A stretch of DNA of 23,538 nt from a virus, in IMG/VR virus record IMGVR_UViG_3300025303_000109, positions 1 to 23,538 of that record; one strand, 5' to 3'. The position numbers and the translations under genes are program-made. Positions 2,221-21,093 of this stretch are shown here, one piece after another. Under the pieces are notes generated by a model that was given only the letters and a program-made list of their open reading frames with translations, searched no databases and was not told where the DNA came from. How positions within the stretch are numbered: position 1 is the first letter of the stretch; every line of letters starts with the position of its first letter.

Positions 2221-2311
2221 CGGAATGCCGGAGCCAGGAATGCGATGGCAGGTCGGCAAACCGGACACGCCGATGAGAAGGCGGCGTGCGAGGACACCCG
2301 TGGTGTCGAAG

Positions 2312-2440
2312 GCATGCTTCCCTGCGCGAGGATTAACTCGGCCTACAAAGATAAGCATTTGTAGGCTGACGGCTGACTGGCCGTCATCAGGTTCAAAGGG
2401 ACTTTCTCAGCCGGTTGGTCTCACAACCAGCACCCCTAGC
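2312..2440 (-). promoter_or_regulatory. TPP riboswitch (thi box) with two extra hairpins
   Basis: Read on the minus strand, the conserved TPP aptamer elements occur in order: CTAGGGGTGC (2439-2430), a P3 hairpin (GGTTG/CAACC), GCTGAGA (2411-2405), CCCTTTGAACCTGAT (2400-2386), the P5 hairpin CGAG-TTAATC-CTCG (2340-2327) and GCGCAGGGA (2326-2318). This matches the thiM/thiC-type consensus. Between CCTGAT and P5, where the usual J4/5 has only a few bases, lie two perfect hairpins: TGACGGC/GCCGTCA (2386-2367) and GCCTACAAA/TTTGTAGGC (2366-2341). The receptor start codon lies about 95 bases downstream. I cannot tell whether control is transcriptional or translational; no clear terminator follows the aptamer, which favours translation. 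Confidence 0.9.
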
Positions 2441-2477
2441 GATCCCGGCGCACGAAGCGCCGAGCTATCTCATTCTA
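2441..2477 (-). promoter_or_regulatory. Candidate promoter -10 and 5' leader hairpin for the receptor mRNA
   Basis: On the minus strand, TAGAAT at 2477-2472 is a good -10 element. It would place the transcript start near 2465, just before a GC-rich hairpin (CGGCGC, TTCG-type loop, GCGCCG; about 2463-2445) and then the TPP aptamer. The -35 region at the expected distance is weak (GCACGT). The hairpin may stabilise the 5' end. The call rests on the -10 match and on the position directly ahead of the riboswitch. Confidence 0.4.
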
Positions 2478-2803: not shown

Positions 2804-3820
2804 ATGGCATTCACGAAAAGAATCGAATTCGCAAACTACACGTTGAAGTTTGGCGACGACAAGGTCATGTTGGATTTACTGGAGGAGATTGTTTGGCCTT
2901 CATTTCAGGAACGTGAGTACATTCGCAAGCTCAAGAACAGGTCGAGTTACTTCTTCTTGGACACGCAACTGGTCAACCTGCGCGCCACGACCGGTGAGAA
3001 GTCCGTGGCAATTGCTGGCCGGATCGTAAAGAATACGAAGATTGCTCGCGACCAATACTACCGCTCCGGTGGCCTAGTGCCTGATAAGCGCGAACTCGCA
3101 TCGGCACCTTCCGCGATTTTCGTGTTGTTGCTCGAAAATCATCGACTTTTGTATTGTCGAGAAATGTCGAATGCACCGGGCATTCAGAATTTCGCCAGTA
3201 CTACGCAAAATTTTCTTAGTCAGCGTCACAGCGAGTTCATTCAGGAAAAATTGACAGAGGTGCAGGCGGAGCGTGGGGAAATTCCAAGAGGCGTACGCAC
3301 GGATTTGTTTCGGCGCTTCCCACGTCCGAAGGTGAGAGTTACTCCGCTCTCCGGGCAGCAGGAGTTGAAGGAATTTGTTCAGCGCTTCGCCTCAATCGAG
3401 CAACTGAACATCAAACTTCTTCCTACGAATCACGAGGAAATCAATAATGATGATTTCTGGAAGGAAATGGAGCGGCGGCGCAAAGAAATGAAGAGTGAAA
3501 ACACCGCCATCCGGTTCTCCAACGCGGACGAGGGATTGAGCGCGGCTAACGTCGTGGCGCAGACAGCTGCAGCTACCGAGCTTGCGAACTCCGAGGTCAC
3601 GATGCGCGGTCACGACGCTCAGGGTGACAAGATCACAGGCAACAATGACGACTTCAGCTTGACTGTCCCTCTGGAGGATCTGCCTACAGACGTCGCGGCT
3701 GCTGCAGCTTCGATGTTCGGCCATTTCATAAATATCGCGGGTCGCGGATTGATTACGCTTCCCGCGATTGCAGCTGGTGTTGCCGAAAAGGTAAATGGTT
3801 TTCTTGCGGGTAGGGAGTGA
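2804..3820 (+). CDS. RexA-like soluble component of a putative two-gene phage-exclusion system
   Basis: A 338-residue protein with no signal peptide, preceded by a good ribosome site (GGAGG nine bases before ATG). An N-terminal alpha/beta region contains the hydrophobic strand APSAIFVLLLENHRLLYCRE (101-120). Strand-rich VRVTPL and LNIKLLP follow near 177-207, then a charged helix with EMERRRKEMK (221-230). A C-terminal part has VTMRGHDAQGDK (265-276), and the last 35 residues are Ala/Gly-rich and hydrophobic. As I remember lambda RexA, it shares the order of elements, including a similar Arg-x-x-Asp-x-x-Gly-Asp segment; this is weak, unaligned similarity. The stop overlaps the start of a four-helix membrane gene, as expected for a RexA/RexB or Kiwa (KwaB/KwaA) pair. 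GC content is visibly lower than in the neighbours, so recent transfer is likely. Function is inferred from architecture; DUF4747- or DUF4868-type proteins are alternatives. Confidence 0.85.
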   Translation: MAFTKRIEFANYTLKFGDDKVMLDLLEEIVWPSFQEREYIRKLKNRSSYFFLDTQLVNLRATTGEKSVAIAGRIVKNTKIARDQYYRSGGLVPDKRELASAPSAIFVLLLENHRLLYCREMSNAPGIQNFASTTQNFLSQRHSEFIQEKLTEVQAERGEIPRGVRTDLFRRFPRPKVRVTPLSGQQELKEFVQRFASIEQLNIKLLPTNHEEINNDDFWKEMERRRKEMKSENTAIRFSNADEGLSAANVVAQTAAATELANSEVTMRGHDAQGDKITGNNDDFSLTVPLEDLPTDVAAAAASMFGHFINIAGRGLITLPAIAAGVAEKVNGFLAGRE

Positions 3821-4437
3821 TGCACAACGACTTCGACCCAAACGATTTAACTAGCGAGCGGTCCCTATGGGAAATTTATCGTCTCGCGACCCGCATTCGT
3901 GCAGGCAAATTGCAGCTGGCGCTGAATTTCTTGACCGTCCTTTTTCTTGGGCTGCACGCTATCGTGCTGACCGAGAATGTCGCCCTGCTGCTATCGGATG
4001 TGCGCTCATGGGCGCAGATTGGGTTCAACTTTGCCATCACTACGCTCGGTTTTCTGGTCGCGGGCTTCACTATCTTCACGACGGTTGCGAAACCAGACAT
4101 GATGCTGGCCATGATGTCGGTGCCTCATAAGGAAACGGGGCTGCCGACATTGAAAGTGAATATGTTCGCGTTTATGCGAGTGTTCATTGCCTATTTGGTG
4201 TGCGCTGCGGTTTATCTGACCGTATTTTTGTTTTGTCAGACCAATGGCCTAGCTGCCAAGTTGGTTGCATTATTGCCCCACGGTGCGTGCATAAAGGATG
4301 GGGGCATTCGGATTGCGTATGTGCTAGTCGGATGGAGCTTTGTTTATTTGTTGTTGATGCTGAAGTCCTTCGTCTTCAATATTTATTCGATAGTTATGAA
4401 TATGCTCCGATGGGAGTACACCGTCCCGAAGAAATAA
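3820..4437 (+). CDS. RexB-like four-helix inner-membrane protein
   Basis: A 205-residue integral membrane protein. Four hydrophobic helices are evident at about 33-55, 66-88, 117-139 and 163-187, with a positively charged N-terminal segment (RLATRIRAGK) and a short basic C-terminus (TVPKK). The ATG at 3820 shares one base with the stop of the upstream gene (TGATG), with GGGAG just upstream, so the two are translationally coupled; a GTG at 3817 is possible. RexB of lambda also has four helices and forms an ion channel that depolarises the cell after RexA senses infection, and KwaA of Kiwa is a four-helix protein too. The second helix here (TLGFLVAGFTIFTTV) resembles the second helix of RexB as I recall it. 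Codon use is AT-richer than in the phage genes. The effector role is inference. Confidence 0.85.
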   Translation: MHNDFDPNDLTSERSLWEIYRLATRIRAGKLQLALNFLTVLFLGLHAIVLTENVALLLSDVRSWAQIGFNFAITTLGFLVAGFTIFTTVAKPDMMLAMMSVPHKETGLPTLKVNMFAFMRVFIAYLVCAAVYLTVFLFCQTNGLAAKLVALLPHGACIKDGGIRIAYVLVGWSFVYLLLMLKSFVFNIYSIVMNMLRWEYTVPKK

Positions 4438-4460
4438 AAAAGCCCAGCTCAAGGCTGGGC
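4436..4460 (-). terminator. Rho-independent terminator of the leftward operon
   Basis: Perfect 7-bp stem GCCCAGC/GCTGGGC (4442-4448 with 4454-4460) and a 5-base loop. On the minus strand the stem is followed by six T and then ATTT. It lies just past the stop of the plus-strand membrane gene but has no T-run in that direction, so it mainly stops the minus-strand operon. Confidence 0.85.
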
Positions 4461-4526: not shown

Positions 4527-4730
4527 TCAGGCGTGCTCGCATAGCCGATGTCGGGCACGTGTATCCGTCACATCTTGGAATGATCGGACTCCCATTCCAT
4601 CGAACTCCGCCCGGGGGATCGTCTTAACGGGCCGCGAGCAGGACAGTTCGTCGCCCTCCCACGGCTTCAGGCGTGCGAACCAAGAGCGATGGGCTGGCTC
4701 AACTCTCGGAGCCAACCCTTGCCTTGCCAC
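4527..4730 (-). CDS. Possible small protein at the end of the leftward operon
   Basis: An open frame of 67 codons from a GTG at 4730, overlapping the end of the upstream gene by about 60 bases in another frame. The part downstream of that gene reads like protein (WFARLKPWEGDELSC and PVKTIPRAEF), and the operon terminator does not come until 4460, leaving space for a gene. There is no clear ribosome site, and the true start may be later than 4730. I do not recognise it. It could also be a chance frame in GC-rich DNA. Confidence 0.3.
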   Translation of the reverse strand: MARQGLAPRVEPAHRSWFARLKPWEGDELSCSRPVKTIPRAEFDGMGVRSFQDVTDTRARHRLCEHA

Positions 4731-4924
4731 AAATTCTGCAGGCTATTGCGCGCCACGGCGCCGGCTTCCCGCGCGACCTCGGGGCCGCAAGCCACGATTT
4801 CGCCGTGTTCGTTGATAATGGCCAGTCGTGCGGGGCGCCCGTCCACGGTGACGCTGAGGCCCTCATGGGCCACAGCGCTGATGATCGCGCCGGGGATGGC
4901 GCCGGTCGGTTGTTGTCCGATCAT
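4667..4924 (-). CDS. Small hypothetical protein downstream of the StbB-like ATPase
   Basis: An 85-residue protein beginning MIGQQPTGAIPG, 23 bases after the StbB-like stop; an upstream in-frame GTG at 4984 would overlap the ATPase gene and is less likely. It contains a short beta-rich segment (LSVTVDGRPARLAIINEHGEIVACG) followed by an amphipathic helix with LQNLWQGKGWLREL near the end. No signal peptide or membrane helix is visible. Its place is that of StbC or TraM in the plasmid operons stbABC (R388) and traKLM (IncP), but I see no sequence evidence for either. Function unknown. Confidence 0.65.
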   Translation of the reverse strand: MIGQQPTGAIPGAIISAVAHEGLSVTVDGRPARLAIINEHGEIVACGPEVAREAGAVARNSLQNLWQGKGWLRELSQPIALGSHA

Positions 4925-4947
4925 GTCAATGCTCGCTGTGGCTCTGC

Positions 4948-5670
4948 TTAGGCCGCGGACTGCAGGGCGGAGAACTCGGCCCACACCTCGTCCAGCTCAT
5001 CGGCGGCGCTCTCGGCCATGCCCTTGAGGCTGAACGCTTGGCTCGCTGCGAGCCGCTGCTTCGGGTCCTTCGCTGCGCGCATTGCGGCCATGTGGTCGGT
5101 GTTGTCCGTGAGCACGGTGGCGAGCGTCAGGTTCTGCGCCGCCAGACGGCTGTAGACCTCGCTGTCGCTGATCGCGACAGGCAGCAACCGGGCGCGCTTC
5201 TCCTCGCTGATGTATGCATGCACGGCCGCGAACGCGCCGGCCAGCGTCGTCGTCGGCTCCAGGCCGTTCCCGATCACGACCACCTTTTCCGCAGGAACAC
5301 CGATCTCGGCGAGCGCTTCGACGGTGGCGATGGCGTCGCGCTCCTGCTTGGTCCCGGGCATCACCGGGATGACGAAGAAGTCGAACAGCTGGTGGCTGCG
5401 GCGCGTCTGCGTCATGCGCTGGAGGAAGTCCTCGACGTTGCTCGCGCCCACGTCAACGACCACGCCGCTTTCGCTGATGGCCAGGGCGTCGATCAGCTCG
5501 CCGAACTGCTTGCCGCGCAGGGTCACTTCCTCCTGGCCGTCTGCGTTGATGCTCTCGATGGCGACGAGCGCAGCAGCCGGGAGGTGGCGGCCGAACAGGT
5601 TGCGGGAGAGCGTGGTCTTGCCGGCGTTGCCGGAGTAGCTGATGAGGGCGATGTTCAGGGGCTTGGTCAT
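4948..5670 (-). CDS. StbB/TraL-like ParA-family ATPase
   Basis: A 240-residue P-loop ATPase of the plasmid stability family (StbB of R388, TraL of IncP plasmids). The Walker A motif is SGNAGKTT (residues 13-20) after a short strand. It is followed by VAIESINADG (36-45), the family-typical VVVDVGASNVEDFL (70-83) carrying the Walker B-like Asp, and conserved PVMPGTKQERD near 107-117. The start at 5670 has a good ribosome site (GAAGGAAC, 8 bases upstream) and begins directly at the first strand; a longer open frame to 5853 only overlaps the neighbouring gene. In plasmids these ATPases act with an adjacent DNA-binding partner (StbA or TraK) in plasmid positioning or conjugative transfer, and the gene just upstream looks like such a partner. 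Here the pair sits in a phage leftward operon, where it could serve segregation of a plasmid-like prophage or some unknown phage function. Confidence 0.88.
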   Translation of the reverse strand: MTKPLNIALISYSGNAGKTTLSRNLFGRHLPAAALVAIESINADGQEEVTLRGKQFGELIDALAISESGVVVDVGASNVEDFLQRMTQTRRSHQLFDFFVIPVMPGTKQERDAIATVEALAEIGVPAEKVVVIGNGLEPTTTLAGAFAAVHAYISEEKRARLLPVAISDSEVYSRLAAQNLTLATVLTDNTDHMAAMRAAKDPKQRLAASQAFSLKGMAESAADELDEVWAEFSALQSAA

Positions 5671-5699
5671 GGCGATAGTTCCTTCGGTGGTGGTAGGCG

Positions 5700-6103
5700 T
5701 CAGGTCTTGCTGGATGGCTTCAGAAGCTGCTTGGCCAGCGGGCTCAGCGTCTGTTGCAGGTAGCGGTCGCCCACGCGCTGAGCGCGACCCTTGAGGGTTG
5801 CTGCGACGGGCTCGGGTGGGGGCTCGTCGCTGGGGTTCTTCGATGGGCTGCATGCGAGGGCTTCTCCGGTTGAGGCGCGATGTGGTGGCGCTGGGGTTGC
5901 TTCAGGTGGCGCGGCGGTTGCGCGCACGCGCAAAAAAACTTGCTGATCGCTTGGCGAGAGACCCGCAGCCCGTGCGTCGCCAGCCATGCACGCATCTGCT
6001 CTTGCGTGTAGCCAAGCGCCCTGAGGCGCTGCAGCTCGGCGGCGTGGGCGTTGACGCCCTGCGGGTTTCGCGGGTTCTCGCGAAGCCACTGCTCAAGCTC
6101 CAT
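5700..6103 (-). CDS. StbA/TraK-like helix-turn-helix protein, interrupted by a frameshift at a T7 run
   Basis: Two open frames together make one plausible 134-residue protein. The first part (from ATG 6103) is MELEQWLREN onward and contains LRALGYTQEQMRAWLATHGL and VSRQAISKFF (to residue 57), a helix-turn-helix like that of TraK and StbA-type plasmid DNA-binding proteins. At the run of seven T (minus strand, 5938-5932) this frame passes into low-complexity sequence and ends at 5744. A -1 shift there continues into 77 residues of good coding sequence: a Pro/Ala linker, then LKGRAQRVGDRYLQQTLSPL and a basic end, stopping at 5700. The ATG overlaps the end of the Myb-like gene, and the StbB-like ATPase follows 29 bases later. 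The break could be a mutation, a sequencing error in the homopolymer, or slippage that makes short and long products. Confidence 0.7.
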
Positions 6104-6896
6104 GGCCGTCGCCGCGCGACGCCGCGGCTGCAGCGGCCCAGGGGCGCGCAGCGTCCGCGTACTCGCCAGGGCGCCGGCTGGCGAGGCCAAGGCCGTAAGC
6201 GTTCGGGTCGGCGGTGTAGCGGGTGTCTCTCGTGTCGGGGCCGCACTTGATGATCAGACCCTTGGGAATGTTCGGCTTGCCCGGAAGGTGGGCGGGCCCG
6301 CGATGGGCGGAGGTGCGCACGGAGGCCGCCGCGCCGGGGAGCGTCACCAGCTGCCGGGCGCCGGGGCGGCGGTCCCCGTGCGGGCGCTTCTTCGGGGCGG
6401 CGGGCTTTGCCGGGCGAGGCGTGCCGCGTGGCACAACGCTGCGGCCGAGGGCGGCCATCTTGGTCGCGTAGAACTGTCGTCCCGCGGCCCGCTTGTGCTC
6501 CCGGGCGTCGCGGCGAGCCTGCTTCTCGCCGGCCTGCGCCTGCTCTCGCGTCGCGTAGTAGCGGAAGCGAGGGCCTTCGCGATGGCGGAAGACCTCGCCA
6601 GTCTCCAGCGCGTGCAGCAAGGCTTTGCTCGCGTGGCGATCTCCGCAGCCGGCCAGCGCTGCGGCTTGCTGCACCGTGGTGCCCGCATCGCCTGCGGCGC
6701 GGACGTGCGGCAGGATGTTCTCGACGGCCTCGGGCCGGGGACTGATGAGGCCGAGCTGCGTTGCCTTCGCGCTCAACGCGAAGACGTGGCGATTCAGCAG
6801 CTTGGCGAGATCGGCACGGGGCATGGTGCCGTAGAGCGCTCGCAGTTGATCGGTCTCGGCCGCGGTCCAGTTGCGGTAAGGGCGCTTGAGTGGCAT
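6093..6896 (-). CDS. Myb/SANT-like DNA-binding phage protein
   Basis: A 267-residue basic protein. Residues 1-60 look like a SANT/Myb-type helix-turn-helix often found in phage proteins: YRNWTAAETDQLRALYG, then PRADLAKLLNRHVFALSAKA. A second winged-helix-like stretch (about 70-125: TTVQQAAALAGCGDRHASKA, then ETGEVFRHREGPRFRYYAT) suggests two DNA-contacting modules. The middle is a long Arg/Lys/Ala/Pro linker. The C-terminal segment KPNIPKGLIIKCGPDTRDTRY resembles the conserved tail of other phage proteins of this layout. It starts 3 bases after the stop of the upstream gene and overlaps the next by 11 bases, so it is an operon member. Probably a regulator; its target is unknown. Confidence 0.8.
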   Translation of the reverse strand: MPLKRPYRNWTAAETDQLRALYGTMPRADLAKLLNRHVFALSAKATQLGLISPRPEAVENILPHVRAAGDAGTTVQQAAALAGCGDRHASKALLHALETGEVFRHREGPRFRYYATREQAQAGEKQARRDAREHKRAAGRQFYATKMAALGRSVVPRGTPRPAKPAAPKKRPHGDRRPGARQLVTLPGAAASVRTSAHRGPAHLPGKPNIPKGLIIKCGPDTRDTRYTADPNAYGLGLASRRPGEYADAARPWAAAAAASRGDGHGA

Positions 6897-6899
6897 GGA

Positions 6900-7253
6900 T
6901 CAATCCTGGGGATGAGTGAGGTCGATGAATCGACGTGAGGGGCGGGGGAGCGAAGGCGTGCGCAGCCGGCGCGCCTTCGCAGCGATCGACTCGGCGTCGG
7001 CGCGGAGGGCCGGGCCGAAGGCGTGGGAGGAGGTTTCTTTGCACAGGAGTCGGCGCAGCTGCAGCTCGGCGTCGACGCCGCACACGGCGCCGAACAGCGT
7101 TGTGGCGATCTCCGCGGTGGCGACTTCCATGTAGGTCCGCGGGTCGACGCTGGTTGGCAGCGTCGAGGTGCTAGCCCTGTGGCTGCGTGCGGCGTTGAGA
7201 ATCAAGTCGCGAAGGGCGTCAGCGGTGCCCTTGCTCAAGGGTTTGGCGCTCAC
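6900..7253 (-). CDS. Hypothetical phage early protein
   Basis: A 117-residue protein, mostly helical by composition. The central part VDPRTYMEVATAEIATTLFG and GVDAELQLRRLLCKE looks like a small helical bundle, and the C-terminus is basic. Its start codon overlaps the stop of the first gene of the operon by four bases (7250-7253), indicating translational coupling. I do not recognise a family. Being second in the PL-type operon, it is likely made early after infection or induction. Confidence 0.72.
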   Translation of the reverse strand: MSAKPLSKGTADALRDLILNAARSHRASTSTLPTSVDPRTYMEVATAEIATTLFGAVCGVDAELQLRRLLCKETSSHAFGPALRADAESIAAKARRLRTPSLPRPSRRFIDLTHPQD

Positions 7254-7546
7254 GTCGGTTGCTCCAGTTGCGCGATGGCGATGCGCAGTGCTTCCACCTG
7301 CGTCGCCAACTGGCGCTCCAGCAGGCCGTCGGCGTGCATGCGGCTCACAAGAACGCGGTCCCGTTGAATGCGGGTCGTCATCGCCGCCAATTGCTGGTCG
7401 ATGGCCATGTGTTGCCGCAGCGTGATCAGCTGGTGCTGCAGCTCCGCCAGGCGAATGCGCAGAGCGCGAGCCTTGACCCAGCGCAGCAAGCCGCGGGGGG
7501 ACAAGCGCAATGCCCGGCGCAACGGTTTAAACAAGCTCTGGTGCAT
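7250..7546 (-). CDS. Hypothetical coiled-coil protein, first gene of the leftward operon
   Basis: A 98-residue, strongly basic protein. It begins with a basic amphipathic segment (FKPLRRALRLSPRGLLRWVK) and continues with a long helix having heptad-like Leu/Ile spacing (IRLAELQHQLITLRQHMAID), consistent with a coiled coil. The ribosome site is a perfect AGGAGG six bases before ATG, only about 18 bases downstream of the predicted PL start, so expression should be strong once repression is lifted. No homologue recognised. Confidence 0.75.
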   Translation of the reverse strand: MHQSLFKPLRRALRLSPRGLLRWVKARALRIRLAELQHQLITLRQHMAIDQQLAAMTTRIQRDRVLVSRMHADGLLERQLATQVEALRIAIAQLEQPT

Positions 7547-7563: not shown

Positions 7564-7598
7564 TGGCGTATTACACGTCATGTTTAATTTAGTGTCAA
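7564..7598 (-). promoter_or_regulatory. PL-like promoter with operator in the spacer
   Basis: Minus strand: -35 TTGACA (7598-7593), a 17-base spacer, -10 TGTAAT (7575-7570), predicted start near 7564. The spacer contains AAATTAAACA (7590-7581), a 10-base word found again at 8955-8964 beside the repressor gene. The TAAACA core occupies spacer positions 7-12, exactly as in the Cro-side promoter. A repressor bound there would block RNA polymerase. ATTACAC (7570-7576) and GTGTAAT (7605-7611) form an inverted repeat flanking the site; TGTAAT at 7606-7611 could be the -10 of a weak divergent promoter for the 7691 gene. Confidence 0.78.
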
Positions 7599-8339: not shown

Positions 8340-8426
8340 TTACAGGATGTAAATTCTCGCAAGAATTGCAGCGCCTAGGACGGTCAGCAAAGCAATTCCC
8401 TTCTCATGCGCGCTCCTTCTTGACAC
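8340..8426 (-). CDS. Possible 28-residue single-helix membrane peptide
   Basis: A short frame from GTG (8426-8424) to TAA (8342-8340) overlaps the 3' end of the repressor gene and would encode a basic start (SRRSAHEKG) followed by a hydrophobic stretch IALLTVLGAAILARIYIL. The repressor's last codons include GAAGGAG, but that site is better placed for a seven-codon ATG frame ending in TGA at 8384. The translation signal for this peptide is therefore weak, and it may be chance. Confidence 0.2.
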   Translation of the reverse strand: MSRRSAHEKGIALLTVLGAAILARIYIL

Positions 8427-8925
8427 CGGCCCCGGCCTTCGCGTCGTCGCCTGTATGACGCCGATGCTCGGCGAGGCGCTCCCCGTGGTGCTTGTCCACG
8501 GTTTCGACAAAGGTCAGGTTGTGTGTCGTCCGCATCACCTTGTCCAGCTCGGCGGCCAATGAGTAGGCAGAACTGCGCCAGTCCGGAGGTGAGGGAGTGC
8601 CCAGCAAGGCGGCCAGGATCTGATCGATTTGCTCCAGCTTGGCCGCGGGAAGCGCGGCTAACGCCCTGAGAGAGATCGAGCGCAGCGGCCATGGGCCGAG
8701 GCCTTTGCTGGCCGCCGGCTCCGCCACTTTTCCAAGCAACTCATCCACGGTTACGCCGAGAACGGCTGACGCCATCGCGTGATGCTCGGGGGGCATGCCG
8801 CGAGCTTTCCAGTTCGTGATCGCGGCCGGAGACGCCCCCATGGCTTTCCCGAACTCCGTCTGGTTCATGCCGCGCTTCTTGGCCAGCTTCAGGGCTGTGT
8901 CGATCACACGAACGGGTTTAGTCAT
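8404..8925 (-). CDS. CI-like prophage repressor lacking a peptidase domain
   Basis: A 173-residue protein with an N-terminal helix-turn-helix of the Cro/CI type: MNQTEFGKAMGASPAAITNW (about 20-39) followed by KARGMPPEH and LGVTVDELLG. The rest is helical, with AKLEQIDQILAALLG, and a charged C-terminus. No S24/LexA-type Ser-Lys peptidase region is visible, so RecA-stimulated self-cleavage is unlikely and induction must work differently, for example through an antirepressor. The start at 8925 precedes the domain; a GTG at 8940 would add five residues. There is no good ribosome site. It is divergent from the Cro-like gene, with 83 bases between starts, holding operators and promoter. It probably binds the TAAACA-containing sites here and at PL. 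Confidence 0.85.
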   Translation of the reverse strand: MTKPVRVIDTALKLAKKRGMNQTEFGKAMGASPAAITNWKARGMPPEHHAMASAVLGVTVDELLGKVAEPAASKGLGPWPLRSISLRALAALPAAKLEQIDQILAALLGTPSPPDWRSSAYSLAAELDKVMRTTHNLTFVETVDKHHGERLAEHRRHTGDDAKAGAGVKKERA

Positions 8926-8945
8926 GGCGTCAGCGTACACAAGGC

Positions 8946-9006
8946 GTTTACGACAAATTAAACAACGGTGTTGACTGAATACTAAACAAAGTGTGTAATT
9001 CAGTTC
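8946..9006 (+). promoter_or_regulatory. PR-like promoter and operators of the lysogeny switch
   Basis: Plus strand: -35 TTGACT (8971-8976), a 17-base spacer, -10 TGTAAT (8994-8999), predicted start about 9006. The spacer holds TAAACA at positions 7-12 (8983-8988), the same placement as in PL. A second operator-like site, GTTTA-N8-TAAAC (8946-8963), is an 18-bp dyad containing AAATTAAACA and lies nearer the repressor gene, where it could control the repressor's own promoter. The -10 ends only nine bases before the Cro-like ATG, which implies an mRNA with almost no leader. Confidence 0.75.
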
Positions 9007-9008
9007 CT

Positions 9009-9293
9009 ATGAACACCACTCCACCGTTTACCGGCCTGCCCGACGACGTTGAGCGCGAGGCCCGCGCCGCTGCTATTGACGCCGCGGCTTCGGCCGTTGG
9101 CGGCAAGTCGAAGCTGGCTGAACTGCTCAACGTCACGCGCGGCGCCGTCACCAATTGGATCGCCCGCGGCGTTCCGGCAGAACGCGCTCCGGACATCGAG
9201 GAGCTGTCTCGGTTCCATGGATCGCCCGTCACCTGCGAGCAGCTTTGCCCCGAGGTGAAGTGGCACGTCTTGCGCGGTAACCCGTTGCATTGA
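9009..9293 (+). CDS. Cro/YdaS-like helix-turn-helix regulator
   Basis: A 94-residue protein. The helix-turn-helix spans about 32-60: GGKSKLAELLNVTRGAVTNW followed by IARGVPAERAPDIEELSRF, the pattern of the YdaS/Cro family. The ATG at 9009 is used because the only alternative, GTG at 8991, would lie inside the promoter. No Shine-Dalgarno sequence precedes it, in keeping with a leaderless or nearly leaderless transcript from the promoter ending at 8999. As the first gene of the rightward operon it should repress the repressor promoter and favour the lytic route, like lambda Cro. Confidence 0.87.
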   Translation: MNTTPPFTGLPDDVEREARAAAIDAAASAVGGKSKLAELLNVTRGAVTNWIARGVPAERAPDIEELSRFHGSPVTCEQLCPEVKWHVLRGNPLH

Positions 9294-9366: not shown

Positions 9367-9894
9367 ATGGGACAAATACACATGAGCGGAGATGCTGAGC
9401 GCATTACCGGAGTGGTGACGCGCGTCATGGCTGCGGTGCGCGCAACGGTTGAGGCAACCCCTGACGGCTACGCGCGGCATGGCGCCGCATTACGAAAGGC
9501 GCCGGGCACCCTCCGCAACGAACTGTGTGACCGCGGGCCTGACAGCCGCGCCAAGCTCGGGCTCGCGGATGTGCTGCGCGTCATGCACGGCTCTGGTGAC
9601 CTGCGCACCCTTCACGCAATGGCACTCGAGTTCGATCACGTGGCGATCCCCTTGCCCGCCGTGGCAAGTGCGACCTCCTGCGCCGACACAGTGGCCGCCA
9701 TGGCGGTCGAGTTCGGCGATCTGATCGCCGTCTATTCCCGCGCCGTTCAGGACAACCGCGTGACCAACAACGAGCTGGCCGAGGTGATCAGGGCATGGGG
9801 CGAGCTGCTGGTGGCTGGCAAGGCGCTCATCAACGACGCGTCAGCGCGCAACGCCGCGCTGCACCGATCACAGGGCGTTGCCCTGAACTGCTGA
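9367..9894 (+). CDS. CII-like phage regulatory protein (CP76 family)
   Basis: A 175-residue protein. The N-terminal half contains a family-typical segment: RHGAALRKAPGTLRNELCD (about 37-55), then SRAKLGLADVLRVMHGSGD and LRTLHAMALEF, which fits phage regulatory CII proteins of the CP76 type. The second half is helical (ADTVAAMAVEFGDLIAVYSR and NNELAEVIRAWGELLVAG). Two starts are possible, 9367 and an in-frame ATG at 9382; neither has a strong ribosome site. It follows the Cro-like gene by 74 bases and precedes replication genes, the position of cII in lambda. CII proteins activate lysogenic promoters; here the target is not visible. Confidence 0.82.
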   Translation: MGQIHMSGDAERITGVVTRVMAAVRATVEATPDGYARHGAALRKAPGTLRNELCDRGPDSRAKLGLADVLRVMHGSGDLRTLHAMALEFDHVAIPLPAVASATSCADTVAAMAVEFGDLIAVYSRAVQDNRVTNNELAEVIRAWGELLVAGKALINDASARNAALHRSQGVALNC

Positions 9895-12668: not shown

Positions 12669-13096
12669 TGCGAAAGCTGGAAGACATCGAGCGCAGATTG
12701 CTCAACTGGTCGAGGTGGAAGGCCGGTCCCGGCGTGGGTGGCCTGGGCTACGCGAGCGTAAACATGCTGGCGGCGCTGGGCGGCAGCTCGCGCGGCGCTC
12801 ATGACCCGATCCCCATCCCGACGATGGCAATCGAGGCGGAGGAGACCGACTGCGCAGTCGTCGCACTGCCGTCCGAACTGCGCCGCACGGTCGAGGTGGT
12901 GTACCTGGGTCGGGGCGGGGCCGCTGACCACGCCCGCATGCTGGCGGTGCCGCTGCCGACAGTGCGGTCGCGCGTCTGTCAGTCTCACAAGGCGATCAGC
13001 AATTGGCTGGCGGACAAGGCCCAAGGCCGCCAGAACCAGCGTGAGAACGACGCTCGACTGCAGTCCGTCGTTTTACGGAATATCACCAACCGCTAG
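12668..13096 (+). CDS. Q-like late regulator with sigma-region-4-like helix-turn-helix
   Basis: A 142-residue basic protein. The N-terminus IERRLLNWSRWKAGPGVGGL, with a Trp-x-x-Trp pattern, is common in phage antitermination proteins of the Q/RinA type. The second half resembles sigma factor region 4: ELRRTVEVVYLGRGG followed by the helix-turn-helix DHARMLAVPLPTVRSRVCQS. It overlaps the DnaB stop by one base and is last in the early operon. A promoter-like sequence overlaps its 3' end, followed by a leader and a terminator, just as lambda Q sits before pR' and tR'. It probably controls late transcription, either by antitermination or as a sigma-like activator; the sequence does not decide between these. 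Confidence 0.75.
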   Translation: MRKLEDIERRLLNWSRWKAGPGVGGLGYASVNMLAALGGSSRGAHDPIPIPTMAIEAEETDCAVVALPSELRRTVEVVYLGRGGAADHARMLAVPLPTVRSRVCQSHKAISNWLADKAQGRQNQRENDARLQSVVLRNITNR

Positions 13097-19114: not shown

Positions 19115-21093
19115 ATACGTTCCAGCGCGCGGCCCTTGTCGCCGCTGCCCTGGCGATGGCGGGGCCGGCTGTGGCCGAGCGAGCCATGGCAGCTCCGGTC
19201 GGCGAAACGCCGCAGCAGCTTGCCGTTCGGCTGCACGCGTCCGACGTGCTGCGCCTGTACGCCAAGGTCGACAAGGAAAGCATCAACGAGGAGGCGCGCA
19301 CCGTCGAGATCGCGTGGGCCAGCGAGGCGCCTGTGCCCCGCTGGTTCGGCTTCGAGGTGCTGGACTGCACGACCGACAGCATTCGCCTAGCGCGGCTGAT
19401 GGATGGCGCGCCGCTGCTGTTCAACCATGACCGCGACGGCCTCATCGGCGTGGTCGAGAGCGTCAGCATCGGCTCGGATCGCGTCTGCCGCGCAGTCGTG
19501 CGCTTCGACACCTCCGAAGAGGCTGAGAAGCGCTGGCGCCAGGTGCTCAACGGCGTCCTGCGTCACGTCTCGGTCGGCTATGCCGTGTCCGCGATGGTGC
19601 TGGAGTCCGACGAGGACGGAATCCGCACCTACCGAATCACCGACTGGGAGCCCTATGAGCTTTCCATGGTGACCATTCCCGCCGACCACTCGGTGGGCGT
19701 CGGCCGAAGCGCCGATCTCTTCTCTGTTTCGGCTGCGGCCTCGGTGGCCGCAGATCCTGCAACCGTCCCCACAACCGATCCCACAACCATTCCCGCAACG
19801 CCGAAGGAAAACCGTTCCATGCCGCAAACGATTGAAACCCCGACCCAGCCACCGGAGAACGCCGACGTGGTCCGCCGCGACGCCCTGCTGGGCCTGGGTC
19901 AGCGTTATGCCGATTACATCAGCATCGCCGATGTGCAAACCGCCTGCCGCGATGGCCACACGCCCGAGCAGCTGCAGGAGCTGGTCATCCAGCGCATGAC
20001 CAGCAAGCACAGTGACACGCGCAATGCGCATATCGGCATGAGCGATAAAGACGTCGGCCGCTACAGCGTGGCTCGCGCCGTGGCCGCCATGGTGACGGGC
20101 GACTGGAAGGCGGCCGGCCTGGAGCGCGAAGCCAGTGAAGCCGCCGCCAAGATGTTCGGTGGCACCTCGCGCGGCCTGCTGCTGCCGATGGACGTGATGA
20201 GCCGCTCGTTCAACGTGGGCACCGCGGCGGAAGCCGGTAATCTGGTGCCCACGACGCTGCGTGACGACATGTTCGCCGACGTGCTGCGAAGCCGTCTGGC
20301 CATGGGTCGGCTAGGTGCCACGATGCTGTTCGGGCTGACCGGCAACGTGGATCTGCCGCGCAAGACTTCGGGAAGTGCGCTGAGCTGGCTGACGGAAGTC
20401 GCCGGCGCCGCCACCACGCAGGTCAACACCGGGAAGGTCAGCCTGACGCCCAAGCGCATCGGCGGTGTCATCGAGTTCAGCAAGCAGGCCGTCATCCAAT
20501 CGGCGATGGCGGTGGAGCCGCTGCTGCGTCAGGATGTGATGTCCGAGTATCAGGTGCAGTTCGAGACCGCGGCCATCAACGGCTCGGGCGCTGCCGGTCA
20601 GCCGCGTGGCCTGCGCAACACCAGTGGCGTGGGCTCGGTGGTGGGCGGTGCCAACGGTGCCTCGCCGACCTGGGCGCATGCCGTGGCGCTGGAGAGCGCC
20701 TGCGCCAACGTCAATGCCGAACCCGATGCGCGCAGCGGCTACCTCATCAACACGCGCTTGCGCGGCACGTTCAAGACCACGCAGAAGGCGGCGAACCTGC
20801 CTTTCATCTGGGAGAACGGCGCAACGCCGCTGAACGGCTACCGCGCCGAGGTGACCAACATCGTGCCCAACAGCCTGTCCAAGGGCACGAGCGCGGGCGT
20901 CTGCAGCTCGCTGATCTTCGGCAGCAACTGGGAGATGTTCGTGATGGCCCAGTTCGGCGCCATCGAGCTGCTGCTGGACGAGGTGAGTCTGGCCGCCAAC
21001 GGCCTCAACCGGCTGCTGCTCAATGCCTTCGTGGACACGGGCGCTCGCCGTGCGGCCGACTTCTCGGTGATGGACGACGCTCTGGCTGGCTGA
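19111..21093 (+). CDS. Prohead protease/major capsid protein fusion (HK97 type)
   Basis: A 660-residue fusion. Residues 40-200 form a U35-type prohead protease: LLFNHDRDG with the likely catalytic His106, RHVSVGYAVS with Ser154, and WEPYELSMVTIPAD. A Pro/Thr/Ala-rich linker (about 205-240) follows, then a helical scaffold-like delta region, and an HK97-fold capsid domain from about residue 335 (EAGNLVPTTLRDDMFADVL onward, PRKTSGSALSWL, NGSGAAGQPRGLRN). Such fusions are known in phages of Burkholderiales. An in-frame ATG at 19819 (residue 237), preceded by GAAGGA, could start a separate capsid product. The first 30 residues are hydrophobic and end in AVA, like a signal peptide, which is odd for a cytoplasmic head protein; ATG at 19186 is an alternative start without a clear ribosome site. 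Confidence 0.94.
   Translation: MNTFQRAALVAAALAMAGPAVAERAMAAPVGETPQQLAVRLHASDVLRLYAKVDKESINEEARTVEIAWASEAPVPRWFGFEVLDCTTDSIRLARLMDGAPLLFNHDRDGLIGVVESVSIGSDRVCRAVVRFDTSEEAEKRWRQVLNGVLRHVSVGYAVSAMVLESDEDGIRTYRITDWEPYELSMVTIPADHSVGVGRSADLFSVSAAASVAADPATVPTTDPTTIPATPKENRSMPQTIETPTQPPENADVVRRDALLGLGQRYADYISIADVQTACRDGHTPEQLQELVIQRMTSKHSDTRNAHIGMSDKDVGRYSVARAVAAMVTGDWKAAGLEREASEAAAKMFGGTSRGLLLPMDVMSRSFNVGTAAEAGNLVPTTLRDDMFADVLRSRLAMGRLGATMLFGLTGNVDLPRKTSGSALSWLTEVAGAATTQVNTGKVSLTPKRIGGVIEFSKQAVIQSAMAVEPLLRQDVMSEYQVQFETAAINGSGAAGQPRGLRNTSGVGSVVGGANGASPTWAHAVALESACANVNAEPDARSGYLINTRLRGTFKTTQKAANLPFIWENGATPLNGYRAEVTNIVPNSLSKGTSAGVCSSLIFGSNWEMFVMAQFGAIELLLDEVSLAANGLNRLLLNAFVDTGARRAADFSVMDDALAG

Follow-up and report, generated by a model that had tools for sequence, protein, structure and literature searches.

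StbAB ties plasmid positioning to conjugation, and the occurrence of such a pair in a phage raises the question of what it does there and where it came from. We analysed this in an IMG/VR virus record taken whole (23,538 bases; hereafter the window), in whose early region a preliminary description had placed a StbA-like helix-turn-helix protein, an ATPase likened to both StbB and TraL, and a small third gene.

Layout of the record and its early promoters

The record is a fragment of a temperate phage of Burkholderia-group bacteria, host flank included. Its layout is lambdoid, with repressor, Cro, CII, initiator, helicase, terminase, portal and head genes; these include an O-like initiator, a DnaB helicase, a GpA-type terminase, a portal protein and a protease-capsid fusion. 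The left side and the control genes are arranged as follows:

1-2442: host chromosome flank, TonB-dependent receptor gene, 86% identity to a Mitsuaria genome
near 2443: left end of the prophage
8404-8940, minus strand: cI-type repressor gene (phrog_8, E 7e-8; phrog_35)
8991-9293, rightward side, behind the promoter PR: Cro/YdaS-like gene
9367-9894: CII-like gene

The match to the Mitsuaria genome ends at 2442, with none beyond, which places the prophage end. No integrase is visible in the window, and no plasmid replication gene was recognised in it. Integration by XerCD at dif was rejected, as we found no dif-like site in the window, in the first 60 kb of the Mitsuaria contig or in the genome (G001) of the phage relative L011 described below.

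The prophage junction falls right at the 5' end of a TPP riboswitch-like element upstream of the TonB receptor gene (2302-2447, minus strand; 35.7 bits, E 1.5e-5, below the Rfam gathering score). The stretch between host flank and leftward operon (2804-4437, plus strand), where an integrase might be expected, encodes two proteins, one of 338 aa that is weakly similar to DUF4747 and one of 206 aa that is membrane-like; PADLOC returned no match for these proteins, and a defence-system reading was dropped. A period-12 ACAAC repeat in a head gene (19753-19799) looks like a coding repeat, is without counterpart, and was also set aside.

The genes of interest belong to a leftward operon of overlapping or closely spaced genes that runs from 7546 to 4667, with the following features:

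8971-8999, plus strand: rightward early promoter PR, TTGACT-N17-TGTAAT, before cro
8957-8964 and 8981-8988, plus strand: two AYTAAACA motifs at PR
7570-7598, minus strand: leftward early promoter PL, TTGACA-N17-TGTAAT, exact twin of PR
7581-7588, minus strand: AYTAAACA motif in PL, candidate repressor site
7250-7546, minus strand: first gene of the operon, from the ORF list
6900-7253, minus strand: operon gene, from the ORF list
6093-6896, minus strand: operon gene upstream of stbA, 267 aa, overlapping the stbA start, with a weak match to D5-like regulators (phrog_323, E 9.7e-7)
5700-6103, minus strand: stbA-like gene (helix-turn-helix adaptor), split over two frames, identified by its match to the StbA of L011
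5932-5938, minus strand: run of seven T at which the stbA frame is lost (frame A before, -1 frame after)
4951-5670, minus strand: stbB-like gene, ParA/MinD-class ATPase, 240 aa (NCBIfam NF041292)
4667-4924, minus strand: small phage gene, 85 aa, not stbC (relatives in L018, JC1, LPPA36 and Rb1)
4442-4460, minus strand: terminator-like hairpin at the operon end, a 7-bp GC-rich stem followed by a T run

The pattern TTGACW-N17-TGTAAT occurs exactly twice in the window, at PL and PR, with 0.02 copies expected in shuffled sequences, and the three copies of AYTAAACA each lie at one of the two promoters (0.03 expected). Twin promoters with a common motif fit a repressor-controlled PL and PR, and they bear out the early view that the pair is driven from a phage early promoter; we infer that PL is likely shut in lysogens and stbAB silent. 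Terminator-like sites showed no excess over shuffles across the operon-end region.

The ATPase, its partner and the third gene

We found that the ATPase exceeds the cut-off of the NCBIfam StbB model NF041292 (223.1 bits against 200, residues 6-232), in agreement with its initial assignment. In the alignment its P-loop reads SGNAGKT, the SGxxGK[T/S] form that defines the R388 StbB group, as opposed to KGGxxK in the RP4 TraL group (PMC3098194). The likeness to TraL did not survive, as the NCBIfam TraL model gives only 12.4 bits against a cut-off of 360; judged by these motifs and models, the protein is an R388-type StbB and not an RP4 TraL-type ATPase. An AlphaFold model (pLDDT 90.9) predicts a fold of the ParA/MinD class, the closest solved folds being ParF, SegA, TP228 ParA, McdA and MinD-like ATPases, and nothing in a viral structure library reaches E 0.001.

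By tblastn, the window StbB has relatives in 1,479 plasmid records, at up to 45% identity and about 95% coverage (42% identity to R388 StbB), and matches in 0 of 50,697 phage records. A search with R388 StbB likewise found no phage, no PHROG family matched the window protein, and no paper tying R388-type StbB to a phage was found in a literature search. A D6-like plasmid prophage carries a gene named stbB that stands with parM; we take it to be probably an unrelated ParR, named after R1/NR1 usage.

Relatives were also sought by a genome scan, in 401 family and 399 order genomes, and in IMG/VR. Two emerged, each 62% identical: an IMG/VR phage (L011), and a prophage of Mitsuaria sp. GD03876 (L018), which was the one further window-type StbB in the genome searches. 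Other Burkholderiales matches score far lower, and those examined adjoin relaxase or conjugation genes. A match at locus L002 was discarded as a false positive, with only 40 residues matching and phage head and tail genes as neighbours.

Between L011 and L018, substitutions in stbB are distributed over codon positions 1/2/3 as 7/4/56, which argues for strong purifying selection in phages and an ATPase in use. The stbB frame is also open upstream to a conserved ATG inside stbA (window 5853, L011 9833, L018 9848), so that all three phages may make a long form of StbB; the substitutions in the overlap speak neither for nor against it.

The partner gene starts with the ATG at 6103, and its helix-turn-helix frame stops at 5744; the StbA-like C-terminus (..RAQRVGDRYL..) lies in the -1 frame past the T run and ends at 5700. 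Aligned to the StbA of L011, which is intact and 144 aa long, the N part reaches 120 (500 shuffles: mean 24, s.d. 4), the C part 135 (500 shuffles: mean 35, s.d. 6), the read-through protein reaches 93 bits, and the tail of the first frame is at the level of shuffles (40; 33.5, s.d. 5.8). Both halves also match the StbA of L018. No Pfam or NCBIfam model scores above cut-off on the protein; a helix-turn-helix and an NPLL-type tail are common to phage StbA and the StbA of Burkholderiales plasmids and islands. The StbA-like protein first described is therefore recognisable in both its halves, but it is split over two frames.

L011 and L018 read stbA in a single open frame without a T run. This rules out a family-wide programmed frameshift and indicates a change private to the window phage, with no conserved recoding signal; a pattern search for further copies of the site found none. 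The change is either a mutation, a sequence error or a site rescued by slippage, and the pair in this record is either inactive, working with a truncated StbA, rescued by slippage, or misread through sequence error. A broken stbA could also mean the loss of a recently acquired passenger without present use, and the weak codon constraint on this gene between L011 and L018 (8/13/17 at positions 1/2/3) goes in the same direction. We nevertheless consider such decay unlikely, given that stbB is intact in the window and strongly constrained between the two relatives, that stbAB is kept in two different phage types, and that a candidate binding array (see below) is found in all three phages.

The last gene of the operon had been thought to complete the stbABC or traKLM order, which does not hold. 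The plasmid StbC proteins that we compared have a C-terminal hydrophobic, membrane-like stretch; this is absent from the 4667-4924 protein, and its relatives are phage proteins, encoded in the Mitsuaria prophage (L018 11651-11896, with other ORFs between it and stbB) and in phages JC1 (1794-2081), LPPA36 and Rb1 (73820-74053). A serine recombinase is the next gene in JC1 and lies two genes further along in Rb1; the relative in the Mitsuaria prophage stands at one end and the serine integrase at the other, making them neighbours once circular. These surroundings point to an integrase-side phage gene, perhaps an excision (directionality) factor.

Phage relatives and the origin of the pair

Judged by their tape measure and gpD-type tail genes, L011 and L018 are P2-like, and both have a phage primase gene upstream of stbAB. 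Each is an integrated prophage and carries an integrase at, or adjacent to, the end of the prophage. In L011 a tyrosine integrase neighbours stbAB and a tRNA-Ser; the Mitsuaria prophage is flanked by rimO and phaR (named by eye), and its large serine integrase adjoins rimO. Two unlike phage types carry stbAB in their early region. In the Mitsuaria contig (about 6700-44000; L055-L057), the large serine integrase takes the place of a P2-type integrase in a P2-like prophage.

A phylogeny, which had been proposed as a check on the ATPase, places StbB among plasmid StbB proteins and not among known phage proteins. The window, L011 and L018 form one clade (support 100/100). Phages G003, G004 and L015 nest with R388 and Xanthomonas plasmids (phage branch 99/92, whole group 100/98), G005 groups with pDTG1-type plasmids (100/99), and G002 stands apart. 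The branching of the protein tree points to three or more independent acquisitions by phages, which suggests that plasmid positioning machinery has been adopted by phages time and again; capture from conjugative or mobilisable plasmids or islands is the best explanation for the pair. The evidence of repeated capture, like the phased array described below, is new with respect to the preliminary description, and shows a plasmid maintenance module moving recurrently into phages, a movement that the phage collections and phage protein families used here do not reveal.

The phage pair resembles stbABC of R388 (IncW; PMC3098194) and related MOBF plasmids (Xanthomonas plc, p47, pDTG1), whose StbB are 39-45% identical and have the same type of P-loop, in its order of adaptor and ATPase genes, in the helix-turn-helix and related tail of StbA, and in repeats at 11-bp spacing. 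Unlike the plasmid operon, which is placed in the leading region by a relaxase gene, the phage has no StbC, and no oriT or relaxase nearby; a phage early promoter is present instead, and the repeats lie far from stbA with a core GGTTGC rather than the TTGCATCAT of R388. The order of TraK/TraL/TraM in RP4 (IncP-1), a DNA-binding protein and an ATPase, is analogous, and StbB and TraL are related at PSI-BLAST level (PMC3098194). However, TraL has KGGxxK, its model gives 12 bits on the window ATPase, and the third gene is unrelated.

Could StbAB serve to segregate a low-copy, non-integrated prophage, as had been suggested? StbA stabilises R388, the window shows no integrase, and related stbAB occur in three phages (G002, G003 and G004) that encode a small serine resolvase but lack a tyrosine integrase, as expected of phage-plasmids. 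G002 and G003 were confirmed as phages by structural and replication genes, and all three may be phage-plasmids, for which low-copy maintenance is plausible. For the clade of the window, however, we regard it as improbable: the record has a host flank that stops at 2442, its two close relatives are integrated with integrases at or beside the prophage end, we recognised no plasmid replication gene in the window, and the pair sits behind an early promoter that is likely shut in lysogens. A survey of integrases in stbAB phages, which had also been advised, is thus divided between integrating phages (L011, L018) and those without a tyrosine integrase (G002-G004).

Loci L012 (with L062-L066), L013 (with L067-L069) and L014 (with L070-L071) represent stbAB phages with a small serine resolvase and no tyrosine integrase, i.e. 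candidate phage-plasmids with an R388-type stability system; in L012 a StbC-like gene is present beside stbAB.

A phased GGTTGC array and the proposed function

No repeats adjoin stbAB in the window clade, and an array surfaced only on a whole-phage scan:

16701-16769, minus strand: candidate StbA-binding array, seven units at 10-11 bp, four of them exact GGTTGC, in the 3' tail of the terminase gene

It lies beyond the conserved terminase domains (the nuclease domain ends at residue 608). Arrays were also found in G001, near 36418-36486 (six units), and in the Mitsuaria contig, near 12918-13010 (nine units of RTTGC). Phased chains of three or more are formed by 6, 4 and 4 of 2,080 hexamers in the three phages, and GCAACC/GGTTGC is the only hexamer phased in all three, for which independence gives about 2e-5; this hexamer was spotted first and tested later, and its figures are guides and not strict probabilities. 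None of 5,000 synonymous-codon shuffles of the terminase gene reached a chain of four, the GGTTGC triple pattern of the window and G001 has two occurrences in 101 Burkholderiaceae genomes, and a search of 842 kb of other loci gave no phased GCAACC chain. The array alone is not diagnostic, since at least 120 viral contigs have GGTTGC triplets at 10-11 bp spacing and no StbB match was found in 80 stretches from them. Some GGTTGC viral contigs (L091-L170) have clean 11-bp tandem arrays.

R388 StbA binds two sets of five 9-bp repeats at 11-bp spacing, the stbDRs (PMC3098194). The only plasmid StbA found with phage StbA as query is that of NZ_AP023178 (30% identity); GGTTGA repeats spaced at 11 bp lie immediately before its gene, beside mobC, and the repeat cores upstream of stbA elsewhere are GATGCA in R388, AGCAAC in Pandoraea, TGCAA in L051 and CGAACA in phage G005. 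From its phasing, the GGTTGC array may be a centromere or docking site for StbA, and it provides a concrete DNA motif for testing. The recommended search for repeated StbA sites has therefore yielded a candidate array in three phages, although none next to stbAB.

Among the three functions initially suggested, DNA positioning during infection fits best. By analogy with known systems, we propose that StbA/StbB, an R388-type pair made early by an integrating temperate phage, serves to position the phage DNA while it replicates, a proposal that we believe and doubt in equal measure. What was computed is the StbB family, a recognisable StbA, the operon with its twin promoters, the integration of the relatives and the array; for each functional step we infer the following. 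Infection or induction would open PL, and StbA and StbB would be made, the early promoter placing their action in this phase. StbA would then bind the phased repeats on circular or replicating phage DNA, and StbB, as a ParA-like ATPase, would move or tether the StbA-DNA complex relative to the nucleoid and membrane, helping phage DNA replication or an even spread of phage copies.

A precedent is found in the integrated Corynebacterium prophage CGP3, where the AlpA/AlpC pair is induced early, binds repeats in the phage DNA and is required for the efficient replication of that DNA (PMC4446434). Both cases combine a segregation-type pair, an integrated prophage, early expression and repeats in phage DNA. 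Unlike StbB, which is ParA-like, AlpC is actin-like, and alpS lies upstream of its own operon; moreover, the function of AlpA/AlpC was shown by experiment. ParABS of P1-type phage-plasmids (PMC4490671) similarly includes a ParA-class ATPase, a DNA-binding partner and repeats in the phage. However, StbA is not ParB-like, the pair studied here belongs to the early operon of integrating phages, and its StbB has no PHROG match.

Several observations count against positioning. Unlike in plasmids, the candidate array lies about 11 kb from stbAB, and in the window it is inside a coding region; stbA is frameshifted there and no integrase is visible. In R388, StbB is needed for conjugation and not for stability, and phage use would not be a simple transfer of the known role. 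A more general form of our proposal, i.e. that integrating temperate phages position their replicating DNA in the lytic or early phase by means of a captured StbAB and a distant GGTTGC centromere, taken from plasmids at least three times, is tentative, and we lean somewhat against it.

Early operons are a usual location of host-takeover genes. Such a position, and donors that are conjugative or mobilisable elements with stbAB by the relaxase, might suggest that phage StbA/StbB acts on resident plasmids, competing for plasmid StbA sites or displacing, blocking or exploiting conjugative elements. We hold this to be very unlikely. Neither the window record nor the other phage records have a TrwC (PF08751) or PF03432 relaxase, which leaves the suggested exploitation of conjugation unsupported; PADLOC gave no match, and the phages' own candidate array argues for a self-acting cis site. 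Positioning of phage DNA remains our preferred reading, and stbAB in non-conjugating phages with their own candidate array separates the positioning role from conjugation and offers a small test system.

Two minor observations concern the surroundings of the repeats. Beside the GGTTGC array of the L011 phage lies a HicA/HicB-like pair, recognised by eye (G001 35465-36210; L078). Element-specific phased repeats stand directly upstream of stbA in L026 (about 2640-2740), L051 (about 968-1025) and L016 (about 9498-9610), i.e. in islands and one phage, and would be useful to learn the recognition code of StbA.
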